Shown here piece by piece: positions 2,347 to 13,617 of a DNA stretch of 40,407 nucleotides (position 1 is the stretch's first letter; every line of letters starts with the position of its first letter). The notes under the pieces were generated by a model. The model worked only from the letters and a program-made list of their open reading frames with translations, did not search any database and was not told where the DNA came from. The stretch covers positions 1 to 40,407 of the forward strand of contig JAFLST010000025.1 of the NCBI GenBank assembly GCA_022510815.1. Direction: 5' to 3'. The translations under genes were made by a program, and so were the position numbers. Origin of the DNA: Christensenellaceae bacterium. Lineage in GTDB: Bacteria; Bacillota; Clostridia; Christensenellales; Aristaeellaceae.

Positions 2347-2416
2347 AAGCCCTCCTTCATGCGTCTGCCGTTATGCTGTTGATCTCATCATCTTACGCGC
2401 CTGTTTCTTCCCTTCT

Positions 2417-2446
2417 ATATTACACTCTTCCGCCCCCGGAATGCAA
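2417..2446 (-). promoter_or_regulatory. possible promoter of kdgK-uxaC
   Basis: On the minus strand TTGCAT and TAATAT are separated by 18 nt, about 70 nt upstream of the kdgK start. The -35 match is poor, so this is tentative. Confidence 0.3.
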
Positions 2447-2497
2447 TAGGCTATTTCATAAATGGTGGAAAAACTTATAGATTTTTCTATTTGAACG

Positions 2498-2528
2498 TAT
2501 AAAACCCGCTTCATTCAAGAAGCGGGTT
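2498..2528 (-). terminator. rho-independent terminator of sigK
   Basis: On the minus strand a perfect 9-bp stem (AACCCGCTT with AAGCGGGTT, 8-nt loop, 2503-2528) runs into TTTTA. It lies 18 nt downstream of the sigK stop codon and separates sigK from kdgK. Confidence 0.8.
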
Positions 2529-2546
2529 CCGCGCCGTTCCCCTCCG

Positions 2547-2912
2547 TCAGGGATCGTCGTGCTGATCCACCGCGCCGCGCAGCAGCTCGACGGCATGCTT
2601 TTCCACCCGGGAGACATAGGACCGGGAGATGCCCAGCATCTTGGCGATCTCATGCTGCGGGTGCGTCATGCCGTCGGTCAGCCCGTACCGCAGCTCGAGC
2701 ACCATGCGCTCCCGGGCGGGCAATGCGTGCAGCACCCGGCGCACCTTTTCCAGCGTCACCCGGCGGATGACCTCGTCCTCCAGCTCGTCCGGGTCCGTTC
2801 CCAGCACGTCCATGAAGGTGATGTCGTTGCCTTCTCCGTCCGTGCCGATGGGGTCCTGCAGCGACACATCGCCCCGCCGCTTTTTCGACGCCCGGAGCGT
2901 CATGAGGATTTC
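2547..2912 (-). CDS. sigK: sporulation sigma-K, C-terminal part (exon-like 3' segment of split sigK)
   Basis: Codons 110-230 of mother-cell sigma factor SigK, beginning at the recombination core: EILMTLRASKKRRGDVSLQDPIGTD, then the region 3 and region 4 parts. Region 4.2 is EIAKMLGISRSYVSRVEKHA, the helix-turn-helix that reads the -35. There is no start codon or RBS for this segment; the open frame only runs back into the recombinase 3' end. It is completed by codons 1-109 at 12683-13009 on the same strand, 9,770 bp away. Joined at the shared AAT codon, the product is 230 aa with the family-consensus RCIENEILM across the joint. It corresponds to spoIIIC of B. subtilis, with the N-terminal part as spoIVCB. 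SigK directs late mother-cell genes (coat, cortex, lysis). Confidence 0.93.
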   Translation of the reverse strand, partial: EILMTLRASKKRRGDVSLQDPIGTDGEGNDITFMDVLGTDPDELEDEVIRRVTLEKVRRVLHALPARERMVLELRYGLTDGMTHPQHEIAKMLGISRSYVSRVEKHAVELLRGAVDQHDDP

Positions 2913-4614
2913 ATTTGCTATCCTCCCGCAAAGGCGCTTTTGACGCGCTGTCGTCAAGCGGAGGCACTTCCGAGTCTGACGCGCCGAACAGCACGACATG
3001 GGCGTTCACGCCATCCCACACGACCCTGCGCACCAGCGCGCGGACAGCGCTCCGCTTCTGCTCAACGGACATATCGTCCATGCAGTCCTTCAGGGATGCA
3101 AGCCTCTGGCATGTCATATCAAGCTCCGCATCCGTCAGCGCCTGCCGCGCTGTCAGGCCGTTCAGCTCCTGAATGCGAGCCCCGATGGCCTCGCTGTCCC
3201 GGTGCATTTGCTCGATTCGCTTGGCGACATGGGCCTTTGCGCCGCTGTCTTCAAGATCCATCAGCGAATCCACCAGACCGCCGATCTTTTTCTCCACCTC
3301 GGCTTTTTCCTGCCTGAGCGCCGCAAGCTGATCCTCATCTGGCGCGCGGTTCCCGGTGCAGAGCTTCCTGCTCTGCTCAAGCCGGTCAACAAAGCTGCCC
3401 CGATGCTCCTCCAGCGCCTTGATCTGCCCGAATACCGCCGTGTCCAGCGCATTGCCGTTCACGTTCCTGCCGTTGCACAGGGTGCGCTGGCTGCGCTCTT
3501 TCAGCCTGCACACATAGGTGAAAATCGGTTCCCCATACGCTGTCCTGCGTTTTGAGAGCTTCGGATACATCCGATTCCCGCACCGGCAGTACATCAGGCC
3601 TGTCAGCAGCGCCTCATTGCTTCGCGGCCTGCGGTAGGACTTCGCCCGGTTCTGCTCCAACGCTTCCTGAATGCTTACCCACACCTTGCCGGGAATCAGG
3701 CCGGGATGCTCTCCGACCGAGACGATCCATTCATGAACGGGCAGATAAACCGTTGCCCGACCCTTCTCCTGATCCGTCCGGTTATAGGCGAGGACGCCGT
3801 GTTCTCCGTCAAACGCCGTCACTTCCGAAAACACCTCCGCGCCCTTGCCCGCAAAATACGCATAGGCCTCCTGATCCGCCATCAGATAAACCGGGTTCTG
3901 CAAAATGCCCTTGATGGAAAACCTCGTAAACTGCCTGCCATTCTTCGTGAACATCCGCCGCTTGATGAGTTCCGCCTCCGTATTGGTCAGCGACTGATTC
4001 TCTCCGAAAAGCTCATAGATCGTCTTCACAATCTCCGCTTCCTCCGGAATCAGCTTCAGCTTACAGGCTTTCTTCGTCTTGCCGTCCACGGTGACGCTTT
4101 TCACGCTCTCGGAGGCATATCCGGTCGGCGTGACACCACCCAGCCAGCGCCCTGTTTTTGCCAGCTCGTGCATGTTGTCCCGGATGCGCTCCGCAATCGT
4201 CTCCCGCTCCAACTGCGAAAAAACGGAGGCGATATACATCATCGCCCGGCCCATCGGCGTGCCGGTGTCAAACTGCTCACGGATCGAGATGAAGTCTACG
4301 CTGAGCCTTGACAGGGTTTCAATCAGCCCAGAAAAGTCGCTGATATTGCGGCTGATGCGGTCAAGGCGGTAAACAACGATGGCCTTGACGCGGCGTTCCT
4401 GCGCTGCCTTCATCATTCGCTTGAAGGCCGGGCGGTTCAGGTTGCCGCCGGAAAATCCTTCATCCTCGTAGATCACAAGGTCCGCGAGCGCTTCCTCCCC
4501 GTAGTGTGCACTCACATATTCCCTGCACAGCTCCACCTGATTGCCGATACTCTCGCCCTTGCCGGTGAATTTCGATTTGCGGGAATAGACAGCGATGCAC
4601 TGGCCTTTTTTCAT
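2911..4614 (-). CDS. spoIVCA: large serine recombinase, SpoIVCA-type
   Basis: Site-specific recombinase of 567 aa expected to cut at the two AAATG cores and rejoin sigK. The resolvase domain is at residues about 6-155: IAVYSRKSK with the catalytic Ser at position 14 (Y-x-R-x-S), then VVYRLDRISRN and the QLERETIAERI helix. The recombinase DNA-binding domain (ELAKTGRWLGGVTPTGY onward) covers about 165-290. A zinc-ribbon (GLMYCRCGNRMYPK, later Cys residues in CRLKERSQRTLCNG) is near 340-385, and a long coiled coil covers about 420-500, as in SpoIVCA and phage integrases of this class. The ATG at 4612-4614 is preferred (AAGGAG upstream); the frame is open 78 codons further but has no family similarity there. 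Its last codons form one attachment arm and its stop codon lies in the crossover core. Confidence 0.92.
   Translation of the reverse strand: MKKGQCIAVYSRKSKFTGKGESIGNQVELCREYVSAHYGEEALADLVIYEDEGFSGGNLNRPAFKRMMKAAQERRVKAIVVYRLDRISRNISDFSGLIETLSRLSVDFISIREQFDTGTPMGRAMMYIASVFSQLERETIAERIRDNMHELAKTGRWLGGVTPTGYASESVKSVTVDGKTKKACKLKLIPEEAEIVKTIYELFGENQSLTNTEAELIKRRMFTKNGRQFTRFSIKGILQNPVYLMADQEAYAYFAGKGAEVFSEVTAFDGEHGVLAYNRTDQEKGRATVYLPVHEWIVSVGEHPGLIPGKVWVSIQEALEQNRAKSYRRPRSNEALLTGLMYCRCGNRMYPKLSKRRTAYGEPIFTYVCRLKERSQRTLCNGRNVNGNALDTAVFGQIKALEEHRGSFVDRLEQSRKLCTGNRAPDEDQLAALRQEKAEVEKKIGGLVDSLMDLEDSGAKAHVAKRIEQMHRDSEAIGARIQELNGLTARQALTDAELDMTCQRLASLKDCMDDMSVEQKRSAVRALVRRVVWDGVNAHVVLFGASDSEVPPLDDSASKAPLREDSK
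2912..2927 (-). other. recombination site at the sigK 3' side (attachment site of skin-like element)
   Basis: Read on the minus strand: element arm AGGATAGC (2924-2917), core AAATG (2916-2912), then sigK codons. The core is shared with the junction at 12682-12686, and in both places AAT is in the sigK reading frame. The recombinase stop codon TGA (2911-2913) is formed by the core plus one flanking base. Confidence 0.85.
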
Positions 4615-4721
4615 GGCATACGCTCCTTCGCTATACGCGCTGCGATTGTCCCCATGGAGGCCATGTCGGGACATCTCATCATACGCGCCACCCGCGGAAT
4701 AAAGCTCGAACGGCGAAGCGC

Positions 4722-4760
4722 AAAAAAAGCGGCGAACCGGTCCATTGACCAGCTCGCCGC
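4722..4760 (-). terminator. strong terminator of the giant surface-protein gene
   Basis: On the minus strand a 14-bp stem with two G-T wobbles and an AATG loop is followed by seven T (4722-4728). It starts 13 nt after the stop codon of the large gene and separates it from the recombinase, which must therefore have its own promoter in the roughly 107 nt left. Confidence 0.9.
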
Positions 4761-4772
4761 CCCATGGGCTTA

Positions 4773-7700
4773 TCAGAAATGCTTCTTCCCCTTGTCCTTT
4801 CCGAAAACAGCCATACCGATCAGCGCCATGACAGCCAGCGCCATCCACAGCGCCAAACGGCTGTCATCGCCGGTTTGCGGCACATCCGCCACATCCTTGG
4901 CATTGACGAAAATGGCCGTCACGGTTGTGTCCGCGACAATCGTCCCGGATTCGTCCGTCGAGGTGGTCGCGTAACCATCCTGATTCGCGGACTGCTCTCT
5001 CACCGAGTAACGAATCCCCGCCGGGAGCCCGGACGCCGTTTTGCTTTCCCCATGCCTCAGCGTGAAGGCGGCAACGCCATTGCTGAAGACCATATCCCCG
5101 TAGGTTACGCTCAAGCTGGTGTCGCTCAGCATCACCATGAAGGAGAACTCGGCCTGCGGGTCTCCGGCGTTACCGGTGACCTGCTTGCGCACGGTCAGGC
5201 TGCCCGTCTTTGTCTCCGGTGTCGGTTCGGCGCTATCCTTGGTGTTGACAAACGCCACGTTCACCGTCTGCCCGCCCTGAATCAAGCCAGCAGCGTTGGC
5301 AGGCACGGTGGTGATATAGCCATCCGCGCTGGCGTCCGTTTCCGTAACGGTGTATTCCGTCCCGGCCGCGAAAGGCTCGGACGTCCAGCTCTCGCCATGC
5401 TTCAGGGTGAACTCGTAAGCGCTGCCGCCGATCGTCGCCGCAAAGCGGAAGTCTCTGTTCGTCTCGCCCGCATTGCCCGCGACGGTTTTGCTCACAGCCA
5501 GCCGACCGAAGCTGCTGACGGTATTGACGAAAGTGGGACTGTCCACCGCGGCGTCGTTCCTTGCGTACGCGACCGTGTAGCTGACAGCCGTGTCGCCCGG
5601 CTTCACTTCAACCGTGACAGTGACCTTGTACTGCGCGTCATCATACACCATGCCGTTTTCCCCGTCATTGATCTCGGACAGGGTGTAGGCATAGGTTCCC
5701 GCGTCAAGTTTCTGCAGGACAAAGCTGATCTTGCCCTCCGCATCATTGGCGGCGACGTAACCACCCGCCTGCGCGCCTTCGGGAAGCAGCGCAAAGCGGA
5801 AGCGTCCTTCGGTCAGTTCAGCGCCCTGCAGCACCTTGCTCGCATTCACGACGACATCGACATGATCGGGATCGTATCGGTTATCGAAAGCGACTGCATT
5901 GCCGCTCACCGCTTTGCCATCCTTAACGATGGATACAGCGGGCGCCAGCGCTTCGCCAACAGCCGTGACCGTTACGGTAACGTCGTAGGCGCTGGTGTCG
6001 TAACTGACGCCCGGACGGCCATCATTGGCTTCCCAGACCTTAAAGGTATAGACGCCCTCGCCGCAGAAGCGGAAATCAAACCTGCCATTCGGAGCGCTTT
6101 CCGTCAGCGCAAGCGAAGTCTCTGCGCCGGGTTGGAGCGTGGCATCGTTGTACTTCACCTCGCCGGACGCGGAAATCAGCTTGGCGATGACGGTGAAGGT
6201 ATCTCCCTCCCAGCCGCCGCCGGGGCGCTTGGAGAGATCGTAGTTCTTCACCACATCGAAGCCCGCGTCAGCATAGGCCTGATTCTCGAAGGTGTCGATG
6301 CCGTCTTTGTACGTCGTCTGCTTCACCTTCAGATCGCCATCATTATTCTCCACTTGGTAGGTGATGGTGATGGTTTTCCCGTCATAATCAATGCCGGCTT
6401 TTCCGCCATTCTTCTCCGTGACGGTAACCGTATACTCGCCCGCCGCGTTGAACGTGATGGTGTCAAAGGCCACCCTGCCATCGGCGCCGTTGGTCGCCGT
6501 CAGATTGTCCGGCAGGGTCATGCCGTCATTGGGGTTGGAGCCTTCCGCAAGCACGAACTCAAACATCCCGGCAGGAATGCTGCTGCGTCCCTTGACGACC
6601 TTTTTGACCTCCGGCACAGCCTCCGTGCCGGAGATGCGCTTGTTAACAAAGGGCACACGCGTCATGTCAGCAACCTGACCAAAGGCCGTATTGCCCGCTA
6701 CGCCGTCGTGGCTGACAGCATAGTCGTCATAGTCCGACTCCTTCACCGTGTATTCGGTTCCCAAAGGCAGACCGAAGATGGTTATGCTCTGGCCGTGCCG
6801 CAGACGGATGCTCTCACCGCTCCTGATGCTGCCCGTCGTCTGAGTGCTGCCCGGCGCAAACAGGGGCGCAATCACTCCGCCGTTCAGGCCGTTTGCGCTG
6901 GCATCCGACTGCAGTTCATAGCGGAATGCCTCGTCCGTCTCCGCGAAGGTGAAGGTGAAGATGAACTCCTTCGCCTGATCCGCGCCATCGCCTGTGACGG
7001 TATTGCTCACGTTCAGCTGACCGTAGCGGTTGAGGCGATTCGTGAAGGTCGGCACTGCGCCTTCCGGCAGCTTGCTGTTATTGGCATCGAAATATTCGAC
7101 TGTAGCAACGGGCGCGCCCTTTACATCCTTAACCGTGATGACAACCTTGTACTCCGCGTCGTCGTAGGTGATGTCCCGGGACCCGGTGTTGACCTCGCGC
7201 ATGATGGACTTATATGTGCCCACCCCCAGATCCGAGAGCGTAAAGGTCACATTCCCGTTTGCGTCGTTGCTGCTGGCAGCCTGCGTCGCGCTCGTGACCG
7301 CGTCGATATCCTCCGATGTATCCTTCACCAGCGTGAAAGAGAACTGCCTGTCGCTAAGCTCTCCGCCATCCAGCACCTTCTTCGCCTGCACCGTGACATT
7401 GATTTTAACGCCATAGCTGTTATAGAAGGTGATTGTGGTATCCTTCTGCGGGGTGCCGTTCTTTGTGATCGACACAGCGGAGGTCAGCTCCTCGCCGTCG
7501 GCCGTCACGGTAACGGTGACATAGAAGATACTGCTGTCATAGGTGACGCCGGGGATGCTGCTATTGACCTCCTTCACCTCGAAGAGATAGCTGCCCTCGC
7601 CGTAGAACCGGAAATGGAATGTGCCGGTTTGGGCGCTCTCTGTCAGCGTGACCGTAGCCGCGTCATTGAGATGAAGCGTCTCACCGCCAATACCCACCTC

Positions 7701-10700
7701 GCCGGCGGCCTGAACCAGGGTAGCTGTGACATCGAATTCGTCGCCATCCCATTTGACGCCGGGGCGCAGATTGACATTATAGACCTTTCCCACATCGAAG
7801 CTGGCGTCAGCGTAGGCCTGATTCTCGAAGATGTCGCCGTTGCTCCCTTGGCCCCCCGCGTACTCTGTCTTCGTCACTTCCAGACCGTTGTCGCCCATCT
7901 CCACGGTGTAGGTGATGGTGACGGTGCCTTCATCATAGTCGATGCCGGTTTTGCCGTCGTTTATCTCCCGGATCGTGACGGTATATTCGCCCGCTTCTTC
8001 AAACACGATGGGATTGAACACCACAGAACCGTCGGCGCCGTTGCCGTTGGTGGCGATCCGATTCTCGGGCAGGGTCATGCCGGTCTGCTCATCCGCGGAG
8101 AGCTCAAACGTGAACATCCCGGCGGGCAGGGCATTGCGGCCCTTGAGAACCTTGGTGACCTCCGGCAGCACAAAGGCGCCCTTAATATCGCCGATGTATG
8201 TGTTGGTGAACTCGACGACCGCGTTTTCGACATTCGCGCCATCGTAGACCTGTTTGTCCACAGTCACCTTCGTGACCGTGAGCTGACCGTTAAGGTTCTC
8301 CACAGTCACCGATACGCTGTGAGCGCGCGGAGACGGGAAATACGCATCCTTGTCATACGCTGTCTCTGTGACAAGGAAGGTGTATGTGCCGGTATGGCGG
8401 AAGCTGATCGTCTCAAAGCTGCCCTCGCCCGTTCCGCCGCTGGTGGTAATGTTAGCCGTCAGCCCGCCGGTCCTGACCTGTGTGCTGTCACCGCCGACAA
8501 ACTGCAGTCCAAACTCAAAGTCAGCAGCTTGGGCCTTCTCAGGCACGCCATCGTCGTTCAGGCTCACGATTTCCTTGCGGAGCTTCAGCGTGTAGTCCAC
8601 TGGCTTTACCGTGTTGCCGAAATGCACGGCGCTGGTGGTCGCGCTGACCTTCACATCCTGCGTGGCGGTCCGGTCATCGACGGCCCGGCCGTTCACCGTC
8701 ACATCGTAGACAAAGGGTTGGGCTCCCTTTGTTGACTCCTCGATGATATAGCGTCCCTGAGGAACGCCCAGGACGGTGGCCTCGCCGCCCTTCAGCGTGA
8801 AGGTGGCCGTGCTGTACCAATTTACCAAGTCATCGTCGTCTGCGTGACGAGTGAAGTTCAGCACGACATTCTTTCCTGTGAAGTTCTGCAGATCGTTCAT
8901 GGTCGCGTCTGGCGCCATGCCGAAGAACGTCCCGCTGGCCATCATGTTGCGCAGGGACTCTTCCGTCAGGAAATTATCCGCTCCCGGCGCCTTGCTCCGT
9001 TCAATATCCTCCGGCAGCAGCTTGGCCGTGATGGTGTATGTAAACTCGTCCGCGCCCGGATCGGAACCGATGACGGTCTTGGTGATGGGCAGTCTGCCGT
9101 TGACCGGGTCCAGATACAGGACGATGGTGCCGTTGCGCTGCACCTGATATTTGATAATCTCGCCATCTTTGACCACGCGGTAATAGGCCGTCGGGTCCGG
9201 GATACCCTGCTCGGTACTGCCTTCCGTGAACTCAGTGGGGTACTTTTCCCACCAGATACCGCCCGATTCAAAGCGGTCATTCGCGCGCTCCTCCGTGGGG
9301 ATGAAGTTCCGGGCGGCATAAGCGTAGAAGGGGTGGAGCATGAACCAGTTCTTGAAGACGTCCGTTACGGTGTTGACGGTAACGACCAGACGATCGTTAT
9401 CAATCAGGTTAGCGTCGGTGGACGAGGTTGTGACGTTCTGCACCAGGTCCATGACGTGGGACTCGCCGGTCTCCGCGTCCGTCCACACCATGCGGATGTA
9501 GAACTTGAAGTCCGTCGGCAGATCGCTCCACACGCCCTTGAGGCGGATGACATAGTAATTGTAGTCGGTGCCGCCGATCTGCGAGGCAAGACTGACAGCG
9601 TATGCATCGAAAACGCTCAGGTCAATGGTCTCATTGGGACGAACAATAAAGGGCTTGCCATTCACCTCGATGACGTCCTCATTGTTATCCACCAGCACCC
9701 AATACTGGAAAAACTTCTTTCCGTCCTTGGTGGTGGGCGTCTTATCGCTGACCGGGATGGTGGGCGTGGTCTGCCGGTCATAGAAGTTGCCGCCGTTGTC
9801 GTCGTAGCGCTCGGGATATTGGCCGCTGATACCCTCGGCAAGGCCGTTGTCCCAGCTGCTGTCATTGGTGTCGAAGGTAGGCATGCTGCTTTCATTTACA
9901 TTGGCGTCGGCCGGTCCGTTCGTCATATCCTTTCGCGGCTCGCCCACCATGTACCGCACCATGTACTTCATGGCCGTTGCCTTGATGCTCAGGATGATCA
10001 TGGGATAGCCGTCGTCTCTGTCAGGCGCCTGCTTGAGCCGGATATAATACCAGCCATCCTCATCCGCGTAGATGTAGTCGGTCTTTAACTTGTTGCCGTC
10101 AAGGTTCTCCTTGACGTCCTTCCACTGAATAATGGAGTTCTCTTTGATGACTCCTTTGCTGTTTCCATTGGTCTCCAGCATCACGCCCGTGATACGGTCT
10201 GACCACGAGTAGACCGGGTTTTCATAGCCCTGATACAGCCTGAAGCGGATGTTGGCGCCATAGTGGTTTTCCAAATCGCCGTTGTTAAAGTCCGTCTTGC
10301 CCGTTCCCAGTATCTGGATATGGGACATCGCCTCATCAACCCAGCTGGTGCCGTTAAAATACTGGAACCGGGGCGTCGCGTCGTTCTCATCCACGCCCAC
10401 GCCTACCAGCGATTCCGCCACATATTCCTCCTTGCCCCCATCATACATAAAAAGGTTGCCGTAGGTTACCGTGACATTGGCGCGGGCGCCTGTGATCGTG
10501 AGTATGTAGACACGCTGATTCGAGTTTCTATCGTACTGGAACAGACGATAAAACTCAATCGTCGCTATGGCTCCATCAGGAAGAACGGTCTCCGTATAGG
10601 TGACATTCAGTTCTTTTTTTGTTCCCTTAGCACCGTTTTCAATGCCTTTAAGAGAATTGCCGTTTTCTACGGTCTCGGGGACAAAGGGCAGCTTCACATA

Positions 10701-11990
10701 CACACCGTTCAGTTCCAGCGCGTCCAGCAGGTAACCAAGGTTGTTTTGGCTGCTTGTCTGAAAAATCCACTGGATGGTATAAGTGTCCTTGCCCGACTCC
10801 TCCTCCATCGGAACGCGGTTCTCGAAGGTTCCCCACGAGCTCCACTCACCCTCAGGAAGGATATTCGGCCACAGACTGCCGCCAGGTTTGTTAAGGCCGC
10901 CATCCTTGTAGCTATGCGCCGTCGTCATACGACCATGTGAGGAGTTGATATCTTTCCATATAGTCGCATCAAATACAGGCGCTCCCTTTTTGGTGGTCAG
11001 CTTCACCACGATATGGCGGTTCTCGGTAACAAGGTCACTGAAGAAGACAGCGCTCATCCGCATGGCGGAGGGACCATCAGAATTGGGTTTCCCCTTGTTA
11101 TCATCACGATCATACACATAATCCGGCTCTGTACCCAGAGGATGGCCCTCGTTGACCTGATACCCATCCACTCCCGGGCCGGTCAGCTCCTCCTCGGCAC
11201 CCAACACACCATCTTTCTCAAGCCGCTGGTACACCCGCGCCGTATAGCCGTAAGGGATGGTCACCGCGAAGGACGCCGCGCCGCTGTTGGTGCTGGCGGG
11301 ATTCTGCCCGCCGAATATGGCCTGCTCCCATGTGACGGCGTTTCCGTTCGCGTCCTTCACGGAGCTTTTCTTATCGGTGACAACCTGACCGTCCAGCTGA
11401 ATCTCATAGCTGAGCTTGTACTCGTTGACAGCATAGTTGACCTGAAACTTCGCGCCATCCGGCAAAACGAGCGCGCTGACAGAGCCTGTGTGACTGCCGC
11501 TGCCGTCATTGCTGTCGGAGTCCACATGCTTCTGGGTCATGTAGTAGTAGACCGGGTCGCCCACGCCCGTATCGGGAATCAAAATGCCCGCCCGGACGAC
11601 CTCTACGCCGTTGACCGTGACGTTATTGAAGTGAATGCCCTTGTCGAGATATTGCGGAAATTTTGTGTACTTCACGCCCGTGTTATCAACGCTGTAGCCT
11701 TCCGATAACTTGGCGCAGTCCTCCTGCCACTTCTCCGCGACGGTCTTGTTCGCGGCTATGTCCTCCTCATCGAGGATTCGCGCAGGCAGGCCGGAGACGG
11801 CGAAATACTTATCCCACGGGATGTGGCCCTCCACAAACGCCATGGGCATAACACCGGCATTATACTGATCCTCGAGGGCGCGCAGCCGCTCCTCAATCCA
11901 GCTATCGTCCGTTTCCGCCGCCATGGTCACTGCGGGAAGCACCGCCATGCACAGGATTAACGCAAGCACAGCGCTGATAATTTTTCTCAT
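4773..11990 (-). CDS. giant sortase-anchored surface protein with Cna-B/Spy0128-type isopeptide repeats
   Basis: Protein of 2,405 aa, probably a cell-surface adhesin or stalk. Signal peptide MRKIISAVLALILCMAVLPAVTMA (residues 1-25) is followed by about 900 residues of unrecognised N-terminal region. Cna-B-like domains run from about residue 960. Two tandem copies of a four-domain module lie at about 1277-1790 and 1793-2250, and a last domain ends near 2365. Domains show the isopeptide pattern: Lys in an early strand (for example LTVRKQVTG), Glu in Y-x-V-x-E, and Asn in a closing F-x-N motif. The C-terminus has VPQTGDD, a hydrophobic helix and KDKGKKHF, a sorting signal with V in place of the usual L of LPXTG. 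The ATG at 11988-11990 (AAGGGG 9 nt upstream) fits the signal peptide better than an ATG ten codons earlier. No sortase gene is in the window. It is the main cargo of the sigK-intervening element. The binding target is unknown. Confidence 0.9.
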   Translation of the reverse strand: MRKIISAVLALILCMAVLPAVTMAAETDDSWIEERLRALEDQYNAGVMPMAFVEGHIPWDKYFAVSGLPARILDEEDIAANKTVAEKWQEDCAKLSEGYSVDNTGVKYTKFPQYLDKGIHFNNVTVNGVEVVRAGILIPDTGVGDPVYYYMTQKHVDSDSNDGSGSHTGSVSALVLPDGAKFQVNYAVNEYKLSYEIQLDGQVVTDKKSSVKDANGNAVTWEQAIFGGQNPASTNSGAASFAVTIPYGYTARVYQRLEKDGVLGAEEELTGPGVDGYQVNEGHPLGTEPDYVYDRDDNKGKPNSDGPSAMRMSAVFFSDLVTENRHIVVKLTTKKGAPVFDATIWKDINSSHGRMTTAHSYKDGGLNKPGGSLWPNILPEGEWSSWGTFENRVPMEEESGKDTYTIQWIFQTSSQNNLGYLLDALELNGVYVKLPFVPETVENGNSLKGIENGAKGTKKELNVTYTETVLPDGAIATIEFYRLFQYDRNSNQRVYILTITGARANVTVTYGNLFMYDGGKEEYVAESLVGVGVDENDATPRFQYFNGTSWVDEAMSHIQILGTGKTDFNNGDLENHYGANIRFRLYQGYENPVYSWSDRITGVMLETNGNSKGVIKENSIIQWKDVKENLDGNKLKTDYIYADEDGWYYIRLKQAPDRDDGYPMIILSIKATAMKYMVRYMVGEPRKDMTNGPADANVNESSMPTFDTNDSSWDNGLAEGISGQYPERYDDNGGNFYDRQTTPTIPVSDKTPTTKDGKKFFQYWVLVDNNEDVIEVNGKPFIVRPNETIDLSVFDAYAVSLASQIGGTDYNYYVIRLKGVWSDLPTDFKFYIRMVWTDAETGESHVMDLVQNVTTSSTDANLIDNDRLVVTVNTVTDVFKNWFMLHPFYAYAARNFIPTEERANDRFESGGIWWEKYPTEFTEGSTEQGIPDPTAYYRVVKDGEIIKYQVQRNGTIVLYLDPVNGRLPITKTVIGSDPGADEFTYTITAKLLPEDIERSKAPGADNFLTEESLRNMMASGTFFGMAPDATMNDLQNFTGKNVVLNFTRHADDDDLVNWYSTATFTLKGGEATVLGVPQGRYIIEESTKGAQPFVYDVTVNGRAVDDRTATQDVKVSATTSAVHFGNTVKPVDYTLKLRKEIVSLNDDGVPEKAQAADFEFGLQFVGGDSTQVRTGGLTANITTSGGTGEGSFETISFRHTGTYTFLVTETAYDKDAYFPSPRAHSVSVTVENLNGQLTVTKVTVDKQVYDGANVENAVVEFTNTYIGDIKGAFVLPEVTKVLKGRNALPAGMFTFELSADEQTGMTLPENRIATNGNGADGSVVFNPIVFEEAGEYTVTIREINDGKTGIDYDEGTVTITYTVEMGDNGLEVTKTEYAGGQGSNGDIFENQAYADASFDVGKVYNVNLRPGVKWDGDEFDVTATLVQAAGEVGIGGETLHLNDAATVTLTESAQTGTFHFRFYGEGSYLFEVKEVNSSIPGVTYDSSIFYVTVTVTADGEELTSAVSITKNGTPQKDTTITFYNSYGVKINVTVQAKKVLDGGELSDRQFSFTLVKDTSEDIDAVTSATQAASSNDANGNVTFTLSDLGVGTYKSIMREVNTGSRDITYDDAEYKVVITVKDVKGAPVATVEYFDANNSKLPEGAVPTFTNRLNRYGQLNVSNTVTGDGADQAKEFIFTFTFAETDEAFRYELQSDASANGLNGGVIAPLFAPGSTQTTGSIRSGESIRLRHGQSITIFGLPLGTEYTVKESDYDDYAVSHDGVAGNTAFGQVADMTRVPFVNKRISGTEAVPEVKKVVKGRSSIPAGMFEFVLAEGSNPNDGMTLPDNLTATNGADGRVAFDTITFNAAGEYTVTVTEKNGGKAGIDYDGKTITITYQVENNDGDLKVKQTTYKDGIDTFENQAYADAGFDVVKNYDLSKRPGGGWEGDTFTVIAKLISASGEVKYNDATLQPGAETSLALTESAPNGRFDFRFCGEGVYTFKVWEANDGRPGVSYDTSAYDVTVTVTAVGEALAPAVSIVKDGKAVSGNAVAFDNRYDPDHVDVVVNASKVLQGAELTEGRFRFALLPEGAQAGGYVAANDAEGKISFVLQKLDAGTYAYTLSEINDGENGMVYDDAQYKVTVTVEVKPGDTAVSYTVAYARNDAAVDSPTFVNTVSSFGRLAVSKTVAGNAGETNRDFRFAATIGGSAYEFTLKHGESWTSEPFAAGTEYTVTETDASADGYITTVPANAAGLIQGGQTVNVAFVNTKDSAEPTPETKTGSLTVRKQVTGNAGDPQAEFSFMVMLSDTSLSVTYGDMVFSNGVAAFTLRHGESKTASGLPAGIRYSVREQSANQDGYATTSTDESGTIVADTTVTAIFVNAKDVADVPQTGDDSRLALWMALAVMALIGMAVFGKDKGKKHF

Positions 11991-12157
11991 TGGCATCGTC
12001 CCCTTGCTGTTTGCAGTCATCGGTCATTCAATCGAGAATCTGTTCGGAGCGCACGCGAATGCAGTCCGGTTGTCCCAAAAAGGTGTACTGACGCAAACCG
12101 CGCAATGGCGCTGCCTGCCGGAGCACCGCGCGTTTCGTAGCGCCTGACAACCATTTT

Positions 12158-12171
12158 CTCATCATGATGAG
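12158..12171. promoter_or_regulatory. 14-bp palindrome in leader of giant gene, operator-like
   Basis: CTCATCATGATGAG is a perfect palindrome about 30 nt downstream of the predicted transcription start of the giant gene. It could bind a repressor. Function is inferred only from symmetry and position. Confidence 0.35.
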
Positions 12172-12204
12172 TATAGCTATCCCATATTATCTATACTCCG
12201 TTAT

Positions 12205-12233
12205 ATTATAGTATTTTCTTGGGCGCAACGCAA
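12205..12233 (-). promoter_or_regulatory. sigma-A-type promoter of the giant surface-protein gene
   Basis: On the minus strand TTGCGT (12233-12228), 17 nt, then TATAAT (12210-12205). Transcription would begin near 12198 and give a leader of about 210 nt before the chosen ATG. A 9-bp inverted repeat (CACTTTTGC at 12245-12253, GCAAAAGTG at 12303-12311) lies just upstream. The promoter is vegetative in type, not sigma-E or sigma-K. Confidence 0.7.
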
Positions 12234-12373
12234 GATGAATCCTCCACTTTTGCAAATTCCTATAATCTGGAAGCTGGAAGGCCGCCGATTTTCTCATCCA
12301 GCGCAAAAGTGAGCCGAGCGCCGGTCGCATGTTTCCCAAAAAACGGCTTCTATCATATATGGCGCGAGGCGAT

Positions 12374-12404
12374 GTGATAATGGCCGAGGCGCGCCTCATA
12401 CATT
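12374..12404 (+). promoter_or_regulatory. sigma-E-type promoter upstream of the 64-codon element gene
   Basis: GTGATAAT (12374-12381), 15 nt, CATACATT (12397-12404). The -10 fits the sigma-E consensus CATACANT completely, and the -35 matches GTCATATT at six of eight positions. Sigma-E is the early mother-cell factor, which is when a sigK element must be excised. Sequence match only. Confidence 0.55.
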
Positions 12405-12451
12405 GATTGCGCAGGGAGGTGTGATCTATCAGGACAAGCGCTCCAATTCAT

Positions 12452-12646
12452 GTGACGGTACATGTTCCAAATACGGAAGAAGGCAAGCGAGAGCTGGAAA
12501 GAAGGGTCGCCGCTGTCCATGCGGATATGGTCAGTCATCGCCTGCAAAAGCTGAACTGCCCCGGCGAGCAGAAAGCGGCGCTGCTGAACGCGCTGATTGC
12601 GTCAGTGAAAGAACAGGACCGTCGCCGCAGAGAGCCGCAAGCGTGA
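12452..12646 (+). CDS. small basic/helical protein, candidate recombination directionality factor
   Basis: A 64-aa protein starting with GTG: VTVHVPNTEEGKRELERRV, then a Lys/Arg/Glu-rich, mostly helical remainder ending RRRREPQA. I do not recognise a named family. It looks protein-like, and it is the only small gene in the element, 29 bp from the attachment site and opposite to the other genes. A sigma-E-type promoter lies upstream. In C. difficile, skin excision needs a small element-encoded directionality factor made under sigma-E, so this gene is a natural candidate here; that role is inference. The start is uncertain: a good AGGGAGG at 12413-12419 is 32 nt before the GTG, too far for normal use, and only a weak AGGA is nearer. 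An upstream frameshift or a non-standard start (ATT 12446, ATC 12428) is possible. Confidence 0.55.
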   Translation: MTVHVPNTEEGKRELERRVAAVHADMVSHRLQKLNCPGEQKAALLNALIASVKEQDRRRREPQA

Positions 12647-12655
12647 ATCCGGCTT

Positions 12656-13009
12656 TCAAAGCGTCATTGGCGATAGGATAGCATTTTCGATGCAGCGGGC
12701 CGCATAGGTGCCCAGCGCCGTCCCGCTCTCCGGCTTGTAGCTGTTGACCGCCTTGATGAGCCCGATCACGCCGATGGAGATCAGGTCATCCTGCCCATAG
12801 CCGGGCACCATGTACTTCCGCGCGATGTGGCTGACCAGCCGCAGGTTATGGGTAATGAGCTCCTTGCGGGCCTCCTCGCTGCCTTCGACCATCTGCCGGA
12901 TGACCTCCGCCTCTTCTTCGCGGGTATAGGGCTTTGGAAATTGGGATTTACCTGTGATGTAGCCGAGGAAAAACAGGCATTCCTGCAGCAGCGCCAAGAG
13001 CTCCAGCAT
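12656..13009 (-). CDS. sigK: sporulation sigma-K, N-terminal part (5' segment of split sigK)
   Basis: Codons 1-109 of SigK are real sigK sequence (13009-12683). In the unexcised chromosome the frame then reads eight element codons (AILSPMTL) to a TGA at 12656, giving a 117-aa truncated protein. Region 2 is clear: HNLRLVSHIARKY, GQDDLISIGVIGLIKAVNSY (core binding and -10 region) and the TYAARCIEN edge where the break lies. The N-terminus MLELLALLQECLFFLG before YITGKSQFPKP resembles a short hydrophobic pro-sequence, aligning with the B. subtilis pro-SigK segment that SpoIVFB removes; whether it is processed is not decidable here. AGGAGG lies 9 nt before the ATG. It corresponds to spoIVCB. Confidence 0.93.
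   Translation of the reverse strand: MLELLALLQECLFFLGYITGKSQFPKPYTREEEAEVIRQMVEGSEEARKELITHNLRLVSHIARKYMVPGYGQDDLISIGVIGLIKAVNSYKPESGTALGTYAARCIENAILSPMTL
12672..12690 (-). other. recombination site at the sigK 5' side (attachment site of skin-like element)
   Basis: Read on the minus strand: sigK codons ATC GAA, core AAATG (12686-12682), then element arm GCTATCCT (12682-12675) and CGC. This arm is the exact inverted complement of the arm at 2917-2924. Confidence 0.85.
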
Positions 13010-13029
13010 TCGTCATCGCCTCCTGACGC

Positions 13030-13057
13030 AGGGTATGCCGGAGCGCCCGGAAATGTG
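13030..13057 (-). promoter_or_regulatory. possible sigma-E/sigma-K-type promoter of sigK
   Basis: On the minus strand CATACCCT (13037-13030) resembles the sigma-E/K -10. An ACATT/CACA -35-like sequence is upstream (CACA 16 nt before CATA). The predicted start would be only a base or two before the AGGAGG, an unusually short leader, so confidence is limited. Confidence 0.35.
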
Positions 13058-13093
13058 CGGCCTCCTCCCCCGCCAGCAGCCTCGGCAGCACGC

Positions 13094-13126
13094 AAAAAGC
13101 CTCCCCGCGTCAATGCAGGGAGGCTT
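13094..13126 (-). terminator. rho-independent terminator after the PP2C remnant
   Basis: On the minus strand a 9-bp stem (AAGCCTCCC with GGGAGGCTT, 12-nt loop) ends in TTTTT. The stop codon of the PP2C remnant overlaps the stem. It isolates sigK from upstream transcription. Confidence 0.75.
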
Positions 13127-13302
13127 ATGCCGTATGAGGTTGCTGCGTGGTCATGTCGTCCTCTTCACGCTTGTTTTCCCGACGCGCTTCGGGCAGCTTG
13201 CTGTCCGTCACGCCAACGGCAATGCAGGTCGCGTTGTCCTTGCCGCCGAGCATCTGCGCCATCTCAATCATCTGGCACGCCGCATCCGTGCTCGGCCCAT
13301 AC
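13125..13302 (-). pseudogene. C-terminal remnant of a PP2C-type protein phosphatase
   Basis: Only the last part of a Ser/Thr phosphatase remains in frame: KIAYGPSTDAACQMIE, then AQMLGGKDNATCIAVGVTD. The GGKDNAT motif carries the metal-binding Asp of the PP2C family, and a charged tail follows. A TAG stands directly before this stretch and no catalytic N-terminal half is seen upstream. FHA proteins about 1 kb away suggest the ruin of a phospho-signalling cluster. Confidence 0.55.
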
Positions 13303-13617
13303 GCGATCTTCTATCCCGCAGGCGTAATCTTCACGCCGGTGATCGTGACAGCGCCAGCACGTTCCAGCCACCTCAATGGCAGCATTCTCAAGGCTCGCCT
13401 TCTCAATGGTATAGAGGACTGCAACCGAAGCGGTACGTTCGATTATTTGCGCCGGATTTTCCTTGGACGTAAGCATAATCCTGCCTTGTGCCTCATAATT
13501 GTCAGCGACAAATTGACTTACAGTCTCGCGCCCCGCATTCCTCTTATCATAAGTCACTGGCGATAGTAATCGTGGGACCTTGTTCCTTATTATAGGTGTA
13601 GCCCCACAGCCCATGTA
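13303..13617 (-). pseudogene. fragmented coding remnant, family not recognised
   Basis: Read on the minus strand: GLWGYTYNKEQGPTITIASDL followed by two stops, a shifted frame with SQFVADNYEAQGRIMLTSKE and PAQIIERTASVAVLYTIEKA, then a further shift to AGAVTITGVKITPAG and a stop. Codon use and composition look protein-like but the frame is broken at least twice. I do not recognise the family. Confidence 0.4.

Follow-up and report, generated by a model that had tools for sequence, protein, structure and literature searches.

The question raised by this locus is whether a sigK gene (the gene of the late spore regulator SigK) that lies in two pieces is a broken gene or one that is put together again. 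The locus is situated in a stretch of 40,407 nucleotides from a Christensenellaceae bacterium (contig JAFLST010000025.1 of GenBank assembly GCA_022510815.1), which in its whole length is referred to here as the window. Codons 1–109 and 110–230 of sigK are both found on the minus strand with 9,770 bp between them, and this intervening DNA encodes a large serine recombinase. We consider it highly probable that it is a functional sigK-intervening (skin-like) element and, judging from the sequence, sigK probably works only after the element has been excised during spore formation. The window genome is a draft (G000; 77 contigs, 95% complete, approximately 2% contamination), as are all whole-genome relatives that were compared.

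The N-terminal SigK open reading frame (ORF) was listed at 12656–13009 and the C-terminal one at 2547–2999, both on the minus strand; a preliminary description of this DNA had placed the two parts 9.77 kb apart on one strand, and its coordinates proved right. Using the ORFs, SigK profile matches and an alignment of the two borders, the sigK 5' part (codons 1–109) was localized to 12682–13009 and the 3' part (codons 110–230 and the stop) to 2547–2911. The border alignment revealed that AAATG is common to both sites, as is ATCCT after two mismatches, and since both are in the same register the element length of 9,770 bp (2913–12682, minus strand, from AAATG core to AAATG core) does not depend on which of them is chosen. 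On the minus strand, the border on the 5' side (12676–12686) is made up of the core at 12682–12686 and the right attP arm TGCTATCC at 12676–12683, and the border on the 3' side (2912–2923) of the left attP arm GGATAGCA at 2916–2923 and the core at 2912–2916. The halves gave complementary matches to the SigK model TIGR02846, covering profile positions 8–115 (E 2.4e-40) and 96–221 (E 2.3e-43). An exchange within AAATG produces an in-frame SigK of 230 aa with the conserved RCIENEILM, as had been proposed earlier; the border alignment bears this out, and so do the scores of the joined protein, which matched TIGR02846 over positions 8–221 with 291.3 bits, just below the cut-off of 298.65, and the SigK subfamily model NF004471 with 286.2 bits, above the cut-off of 252. 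The predicted circle junction (attP) reads GGATAGCA-AA-TGCTATCC, a palindrome with 8-bp inverted-repeat arms around AA, and its centre is contained in AAATG. Serine recombinases are described as having attP sites with inverted repeats around AA (PMC5595907).

A search for intact sigK in related genomes, which the preliminary description had suggested, was informative: an uninterrupted sigK, 75–80% identical, is present in six genomes of the same genus (G001, G002, G003, G007, G008 and G012). Comparison with five of these six (all except G007) showed that both halves of the window sigK are under purifying selection (pN 0.12–0.20 versus pS 0.50–0.72). The nearest named SigK match, from a goat-rectum Clostridia metagenome-assembled genome, was 63% identical. 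In other relatives the gene is cut at the ENEI codon used in the window. Besides the window, at least ten of 300 family genomes (G010, G015, G016, G171, G218, G247, G263, G291, G300 and G303) contain a SigK piece that ends or starts at this codon. Orthologous recombinases, 49–66% identical, adjoin the sigK 3' part in eight members of the same family (G015, G016-C7, G171, G218, G247, G263, G291 and G303), a 39% identical one does so in G040 of family f6, and in G010 a recombinase of 65% identity shares a contig with the sigK 5' part; no recombinase was seen in G300. In family f10, the G489 element is approximately 13 kb and the G572 recombinase is followed by a SigK piece. Where both ends are on one contig, match positions gave element spans of about 40 kb (G015), 25.5 kb (G218), 12.3 kb (G247) and 7.8 kb (G291). 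An early search for the recombinase in 150 family genomes yielded four, among them that of the window, and is an undercount because only six other genomes of the genus were included; G016, with 6% contamination and two different sigK loci, may be a mixed bin. The skin element of B. subtilis, too, lies at the ENEI region of sigK.

The same recombinase/sigK 3' border was found in three IMG/VR contigs (L244–L246). A fourth, L247 (IMGVR_UViG_2834457792_000003), probably from an isolate, is a prophage-like element integrated in a sigK of another type; it carries a 44% identical recombinase and the small protein described below, and is reversed relative to the window type, its recombinase facing the sigK 5' part. 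The integrase of Terrisporobacter phage TPELB_ph1 is also related (44% over residues 74–483, 37% over a longer stretch), and no small protein was found within the 9-kb stretch read from this phage.

The split is not a matter of chance, because relatives are split at the same codon beside orthologous recombinases and others are uninterrupted. An assembly chimera that placed foreign DNA in sigK might be suspected in a draft genome of 77 contigs with about 2% contamination; given the precise in-frame join, the matching att arms and the recurrence of the arrangement in independent genomes, we regard such an artefact as extremely improbable. The sequence places the window element in a family of sigK-targeting elements with variable cargo that extends over several genera.

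Whether the split gene is the sole source of SigK depends on other copies, and the preliminary description had raised the matter of a second intact sigK. None was found in the G000 draft by profile and sequence searches of its contigs, although an unassembled copy is possible. The next best SigK match, on contig C27, has 45% identity with the joined SigK and is of SigE type, passing both SigE equivalog cut-offs (369.9 and 362 bits); by eye, the gene preceding it resembles spoIIGA. Genes for SpoIIID and SpoIVA are present in G000. Among other relatives, the split in G114 was rejected as an intact gene broken at contig ends (C63 and C92; L198 and L199), the two contigs overlapping around the attB site, and G275, G283 and G005 were left uncounted as contig-end fragments. 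The contig end of G275:C211 (L201) starts at the core AAATGAAATCC, which is expected of mixed excised and integrated forms, and a mixture of strains would give the same. Two SigK-like genes were observed in the genome G070 (C117 and C10), one match being read with an internal TAA.

The recombinase that had been noticed between the sigK parts is encoded at 2911–4614 on the minus strand (567 aa, ATG at 4614), and its identity as a large serine recombinase was confirmed by Resolvase (5e-35), Recombinase (8.4e-16) and zinc-ribbon (2.3e-9) domains. It was assigned to the broad phage integrase family phrog_95 and is under purifying selection (pN/pS 0.13–0.40 in six pairs). Its stop codon, TGA at 2913–2911, is formed at the junction, with the last base contributed by sigK. 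The recombinase frame ends in AAA TGA exactly at the junction in 12 of the 15 border loci examined (window, G015, G016-C7, G171, G218, G247, G263, G291, G303, L244, L245 and L246); the exceptions are G040, where the recombinase stops before the border, and G489 and G572, where it continues beyond the border and enters sigK in a different frame. In the circle form the frame would be extended by 208 codons in G171, 206 in both G291 and G218, 201 in G303, 102 in G015, 95 in G247 and 50 in the window, for all of which the 5' border was read; with one border read, G010, G300 and G458 have 40, 72 and 40 open codons, respectively, in this frame. The four long tails of 201–208 aa (G171, G291, G218 and G303; L200, L193, L194 and L196) resemble one another, and the G291 tail contains a Pfam HTH_3 domain (E 3.8e-12), to which our own reading would add a second helix-turn-helix (HTH). 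Integration is predicted to remove an HTH-bearing tail from the recombinase in these four relatives. Three long pairs of tails gave pN/pS values of 0.28–0.36 and the pair G303/G247 gave 0.71; when the first 58 columns are taken alone the values are 0.48–0.76, which points to weak selection beside attP. In the window, the extension of 50 codons and a stop (12531–12683, minus strand) would be gained in the circle form only, and CYPIA alone resembles the relatives. The open stretch is no longer than expected by chance in the window, G010 and G458 (P 0.07–0.20), and we judge the window tail to have decayed.

Near the other end of the element, a small conserved gene at 12428–12646 on the plus strand encodes a putative recombination directionality factor. 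The small protein (60–75 aa) was found in the window, G010, G015, G040, G171, G218, G247, G263, G291, G303 and L247, and its profile had matches in 10 of 300 genomes of the family and in 5 of 396 of the order, both counts including the genome of the window. Nine of the ten family genomes show a SigK piece ending or starting at the ENEI codon; in G248 the small protein is present and a SigK piece was not found. The pN/pS of the small gene was 0.33–0.49 in six pairs. Its frame in the window is preceded by a stop at 12422–12424, there is no ATG, GTG or TTG before the conserved SAPI, and the next GTG (12452) lies inside the conserved part; the simplest reading is therefore a start at the ATC at 12428, just ahead of which AGGGAGGTG (12413–12421) is located. 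At this position ATG is found in G015, G010, G040, G248 and L247, ATC in the window, G171, G263 and G247, and ATT in G291, G218, G572 and G489, the position being unclear in G458 and cut off in G303. Upstream of this codon, G171 and G263 have no canonical start as far back as the stop, and the closest one in G247 is a TTG at a distance of 15 codons; where the codon is ATT (four cases), translation could alternatively begin at an in-frame GTG that lies within the ribosome-binding site. AUU and AUC are weak start codons that are watched by IF3. Matches of the small protein to PHROGs were three in number and weak (best E 0.033), were obtained with one of three versions only and were discarded, and antitoxin-like Pfam and NCBIfam matches were sub-threshold and not believed. 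No match was found in phage records with the L247 prophage version or in plasmid records with the G218 version; in IMG/VR the latter found none and the former the L247 contig alone.

Promoters were scored with our own weights (maximum 20.5) against the B. subtilis sigma-E consensus, KMATATT, 14–15 bp and CATACANT. The small gene is preceded by a sigma-E-like promoter at 12375–12404 on the plus strand (TGATAAT-15-CATACATT, score 19.0), and sigK by one at 13030–13058 on the minus strand (GCACATT-14-CATACCCT, score 17.5); over both strands of 2,400–13,600 these sites ranked first and third, respectively. The best upstream scores were 13.5 for the recombinase and 14.5 for the surface-protein gene of the element, so the recombinase region is without a comparable site. 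The sequence CATANNNT occurs 18–50 nt upstream of the small-gene start in 11 of 14 orthologs, compared with a mean of 0.40 and a maximum of 4 of 14 in 2,000 mononucleotide shuffles. Among 13 orthologs, none of 300 shuffles reached the score of the small-gene promoter in the window, G015, G010, G247 and G218, the weakest case being G489 (51 of 300). In some of the weak cases (G171, G248, G572 and G489) a GGACAA that by eye resembles the SpoIIID box lies between the boxes. Upstream of sigK, the best site contained the CATA box in 12 of 13 loci (G006 being the exception), mostly with modest scores and with starts assigned by rule of thumb. The sigma-E-like promoters of the small gene and sigK, the presence of SpoIIID and SpoIVA genes and the purifying selection on both sigK halves indirectly favour a developmental timing, and excision would be expected in the mother cell, as we infer from the sequence.

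The mechanism that we propose follows the scheme of the C. difficile skin element, in which the recombinase is CD1231 and the directionality factor CD1234, and in which the directionality factor, not the recombinase, is under the control of sigma-E and SpoIIID (PMC5025042). The recombinase alone would insert the element at ENEI, and the element would stay in sigK while cells grow, and also in the forespore. Production of the small protein would be driven by sigma-E in the mother cell; acting as the directionality factor, the small protein would turn the recombinase to attL x attR excision, and the rebuilt sigK would be transcribed from its sigma-E-type promoter. The circle would be lost with the mother cell, the forespore copy retaining the element. 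The weak AUC start of the small gene may serve as a brake on leaky excision.

Several observations weigh against this reading. The pattern of attP, and with it the excised circle, was found in none of the 300 family genomes, nor was any product of excision seen; the g1 and g54 elements are covered by the pattern, the diverged ends of G171, G263 and G040 are not. The case for the small protein as a candidate directionality factor consists of its co-occurrence with the recombinase and its promoter, and its expression may be poor or lost, since the window has ATC where relatives have ATG. The second-ranked promoter site, with a score of 18.5 at 10420 (plus strand), is antisense within the surface-protein gene and was taken as chance; the CATANNNT box is missing in 3 of the 14 orthologs (G040, G572 and G489), and its -10 conservation partly reflects shared ancestry (G171/G263/G248, G291/G218 and G572/G489). 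Five genomes of the same genus (G004, G009, G011, G013 and G017) gave SigK matches of the 42–46% type only, so sigK may be dispensable, or was missed in drafts. In IMG/VR the attP pattern occurred in 38 stretches, which were taken as chance because at E 1e-3 none of them matched SigK, the recombinase or the small protein, and the integrated-border pattern was not found there.

From the missing excised form, the ATC in place of an ATG and the decayed recombinase tail it could be argued that the element was once excised and is now stuck: the small gene would have lost its ATG, the host would no longer complete sporulation and sigK would be a split pseudogene. Such a history is hard to reconcile with two sigK halves and a recombinase that are conserved at the protein level and with att halves that are intact and palindromic. 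Moreover, ATC or ATT stands at the same spot in seven more elements, all from other genera (G171, G263, G247, G291, G218, G572 and G489), and a codon in use is therefore favoured over a fresh mutation. We consider a stuck element very unlikely, and retain the skin-like element as the preferred explanation.

The bulk of the element is occupied by cargo. A surface protein of 2,415 aa (4773–12020, minus strand) contains FctA/Spy0128 isopeptide, DUF7601 and DUF5979 domains and a VPQTG sorting-type C-terminus, and three G000 sortases scored above the Pfam cut-off; in the proposed mechanism this giant protein would be a passenger or a cargo that benefits the vegetative cell. The surface protein, the recombinase and the small gene are the recognised ORFs of the window element, the gene content of which is not prophage-like, and no relaxase was found among the eight window ORFs scanned. 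A plus-strand ORF of 1,323 aa (4764–8735) runs antisense to the surface-protein gene and was dismissed as an artefact. IPQTG forms the end of two proteins from the same genus, an FctA/Cna_B protein of G010 and the product of a G015 ORF that has at least 3,949 aa and partly resembles the window protein. Elsewhere the cargo comprises a 2,253-aa Cna_B protein and a two-component system (G489), a leucine-rich repeat protein, an AAA_14 ATPase and a MobA/MobL relaxase (G291), a NACHT-type NTPase, a DNA methylase, a ResIII helicase and a MobA/MobL relaxase (G218), redox enzymes (G263) and three large ORFs without Pfam match (G247). No phage structural domains were found among the scanned element ORFs, a subset of all ORFs. 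ORF translations of G171:C35 (L127), read by eye, include the first part of a MobA/MobL-like relaxase at 1–252, where the contig ends, and redox-type genes inside the element (2603–10207).

The relaxases of G291 and G218, the widely differing cargo and the restriction of the small marker gene to 10 of 300 family genomes would also suit a selfish mobilizable element for which sigK is no more than a conserved place to land, and whose departure is random or follows mobile-element signals, with no developmental timing. That the small gene has a sigma-E-like promoter in several genera and the recombinase upstream region has no comparable site speaks for timing instead, and we hold the purely selfish alternative to be unlikely. 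It is compatible with a skin-like function, and both can be true.

A second site of interruption was found in sigK relatives. In at least 15 sampled genomes (G006, G015, G016, G030, G134, G152, G214, G218, G223, G228, G231, G238, G244, G258 and G311), SigK ends at residue 209–212, SYV|SRVEK, in the region 4.2 helix-turn-helix; family-wide counts of SigK matches are lower bounds, 28 genomes having been re-examined. A 534-aa serine recombinase accompanies this site in seven of them (G016, G214, G152, G228, G231, G238 and, as a fragment, G030) and is approximately 22–24% identical to the first type where matched. The missing sigK 3' end lies directly behind it, with in-frame rejoining at TATGT, in G016-C56 (L137, 5400–7790), G214, G152 and G228 (the other complete loci being L180, L181 and L189), and in the remaining eleven genomes the 3' end was not found or not sought in the stretches read; L139, L128, L132, L145, L182–L188 and L195 contain the border only. 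The smallest second-site element is about 2.4 kb. Both cuts are present on one contig in G015 (C30, 25733–66646) and G218 (C61, 35067–61275; L128, L130, L194 and L195), leaving a middle piece of approximately 315 bp, and G016-C7 shows the same two borders; the sigK 3' end was not found in the part of G015 that was read. Genomes with a double cut would need two excisions, by two recombinases, to build SigK. The window sigK has no second cut.

Set against known systems, the window element follows the pattern of the C. difficile skin, a 14.6-kb element (PMC10745906) that likewise cuts sigK and carries a large serine recombinase; its small directionality factor is controlled by sigma-E and its recombinase is not sporulation-specific, as inferred here for the window, which differs in the near-cognate start of its small gene and in its giant surface protein. 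The B. subtilis skin (48 kb, recombinase SpoIVCA, mainly phage genes; PMC10745906, PMC13141910) also splits sigK with a 5-bp core, AATGA there and AAATG in the window, but its recombinase adjoins the sigK 5' part (PMC10745906), not the 3' part. In the B. cereus group, sigK sites with and without the AATGA core have already been reported, and the insertions may carry non-phage cargo as in the window, although this cargo consists of restriction-modification genes (PMC10745906). The gin element of B. cereus resembles the window in being a non-prophage element with a serine recombinase, a directionality factor and attP inverted repeats around AA, and differs in its target, gerE, and its three recombinases (PMC5595907). 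Alicyclobacillus phage MMB025 is integrated in sigK by an integrase of the SpoIVCA family, but is an infectious phage of 105 kb with the core TCTC (PMC13141910); in a 4-kb stretch, its integrase was 23% identical to the window recombinase and 26%, over a part, to the second-site recombinase. As in the window, attP of mycobacteriophage BPs lies inside a regulatory gene and integration truncates the product; the gene cut in BPs is that of the repressor (PMC4557955), whereas in the window it is that of the recombinase, the stop of which is completed by host sigK. Among the matches listed from the openly licensed literature, titles and abstracts made no mention of a comparable second site in sigK, of a skin element with adhesin cargo, of a serine integrase that is cut short when it integrates, or of a directionality factor started by AUC or AUU.

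The reading of the preliminary description, a skin-like element interrupting sigK, was therefore supported as the right one, and the surface protein, the small gene, the recombinase stop completed by sigK and the second sigK site have been added to it. On a wider scale we would put forward, tentatively and at somewhat less than even chances, that sigK is an order-wide dock for non-phage elements with three locks: an integrase cut by integration (with a stop completed by the host, and in several relatives an HTH tail removed), a sigma-E-promoted directionality factor started by AUC or AUU, and a second, unrelated recombinase family at another site, by which SigK would in some species be assembled from three pieces through two excisions. 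For the biology of the group, the findings place a programmed rebuilding of sigK, probable as it is, in an uncultured lineage of Clostridia, and mark sigK as a target in which elements have landed repeatedly; their cargo is exchangeable, apparently non-phage, and includes giant adhesin-like proteins. The findings also offer a candidate family of directionality factors, with an unusual start codon and a mother-cell promoter that lends itself to testing, and a case of an integrase stop codon that depends on host sigK for its completion. Automated annotation may call such a split sigK broken, and the species that carry it may then be misjudged as non-sporulating.

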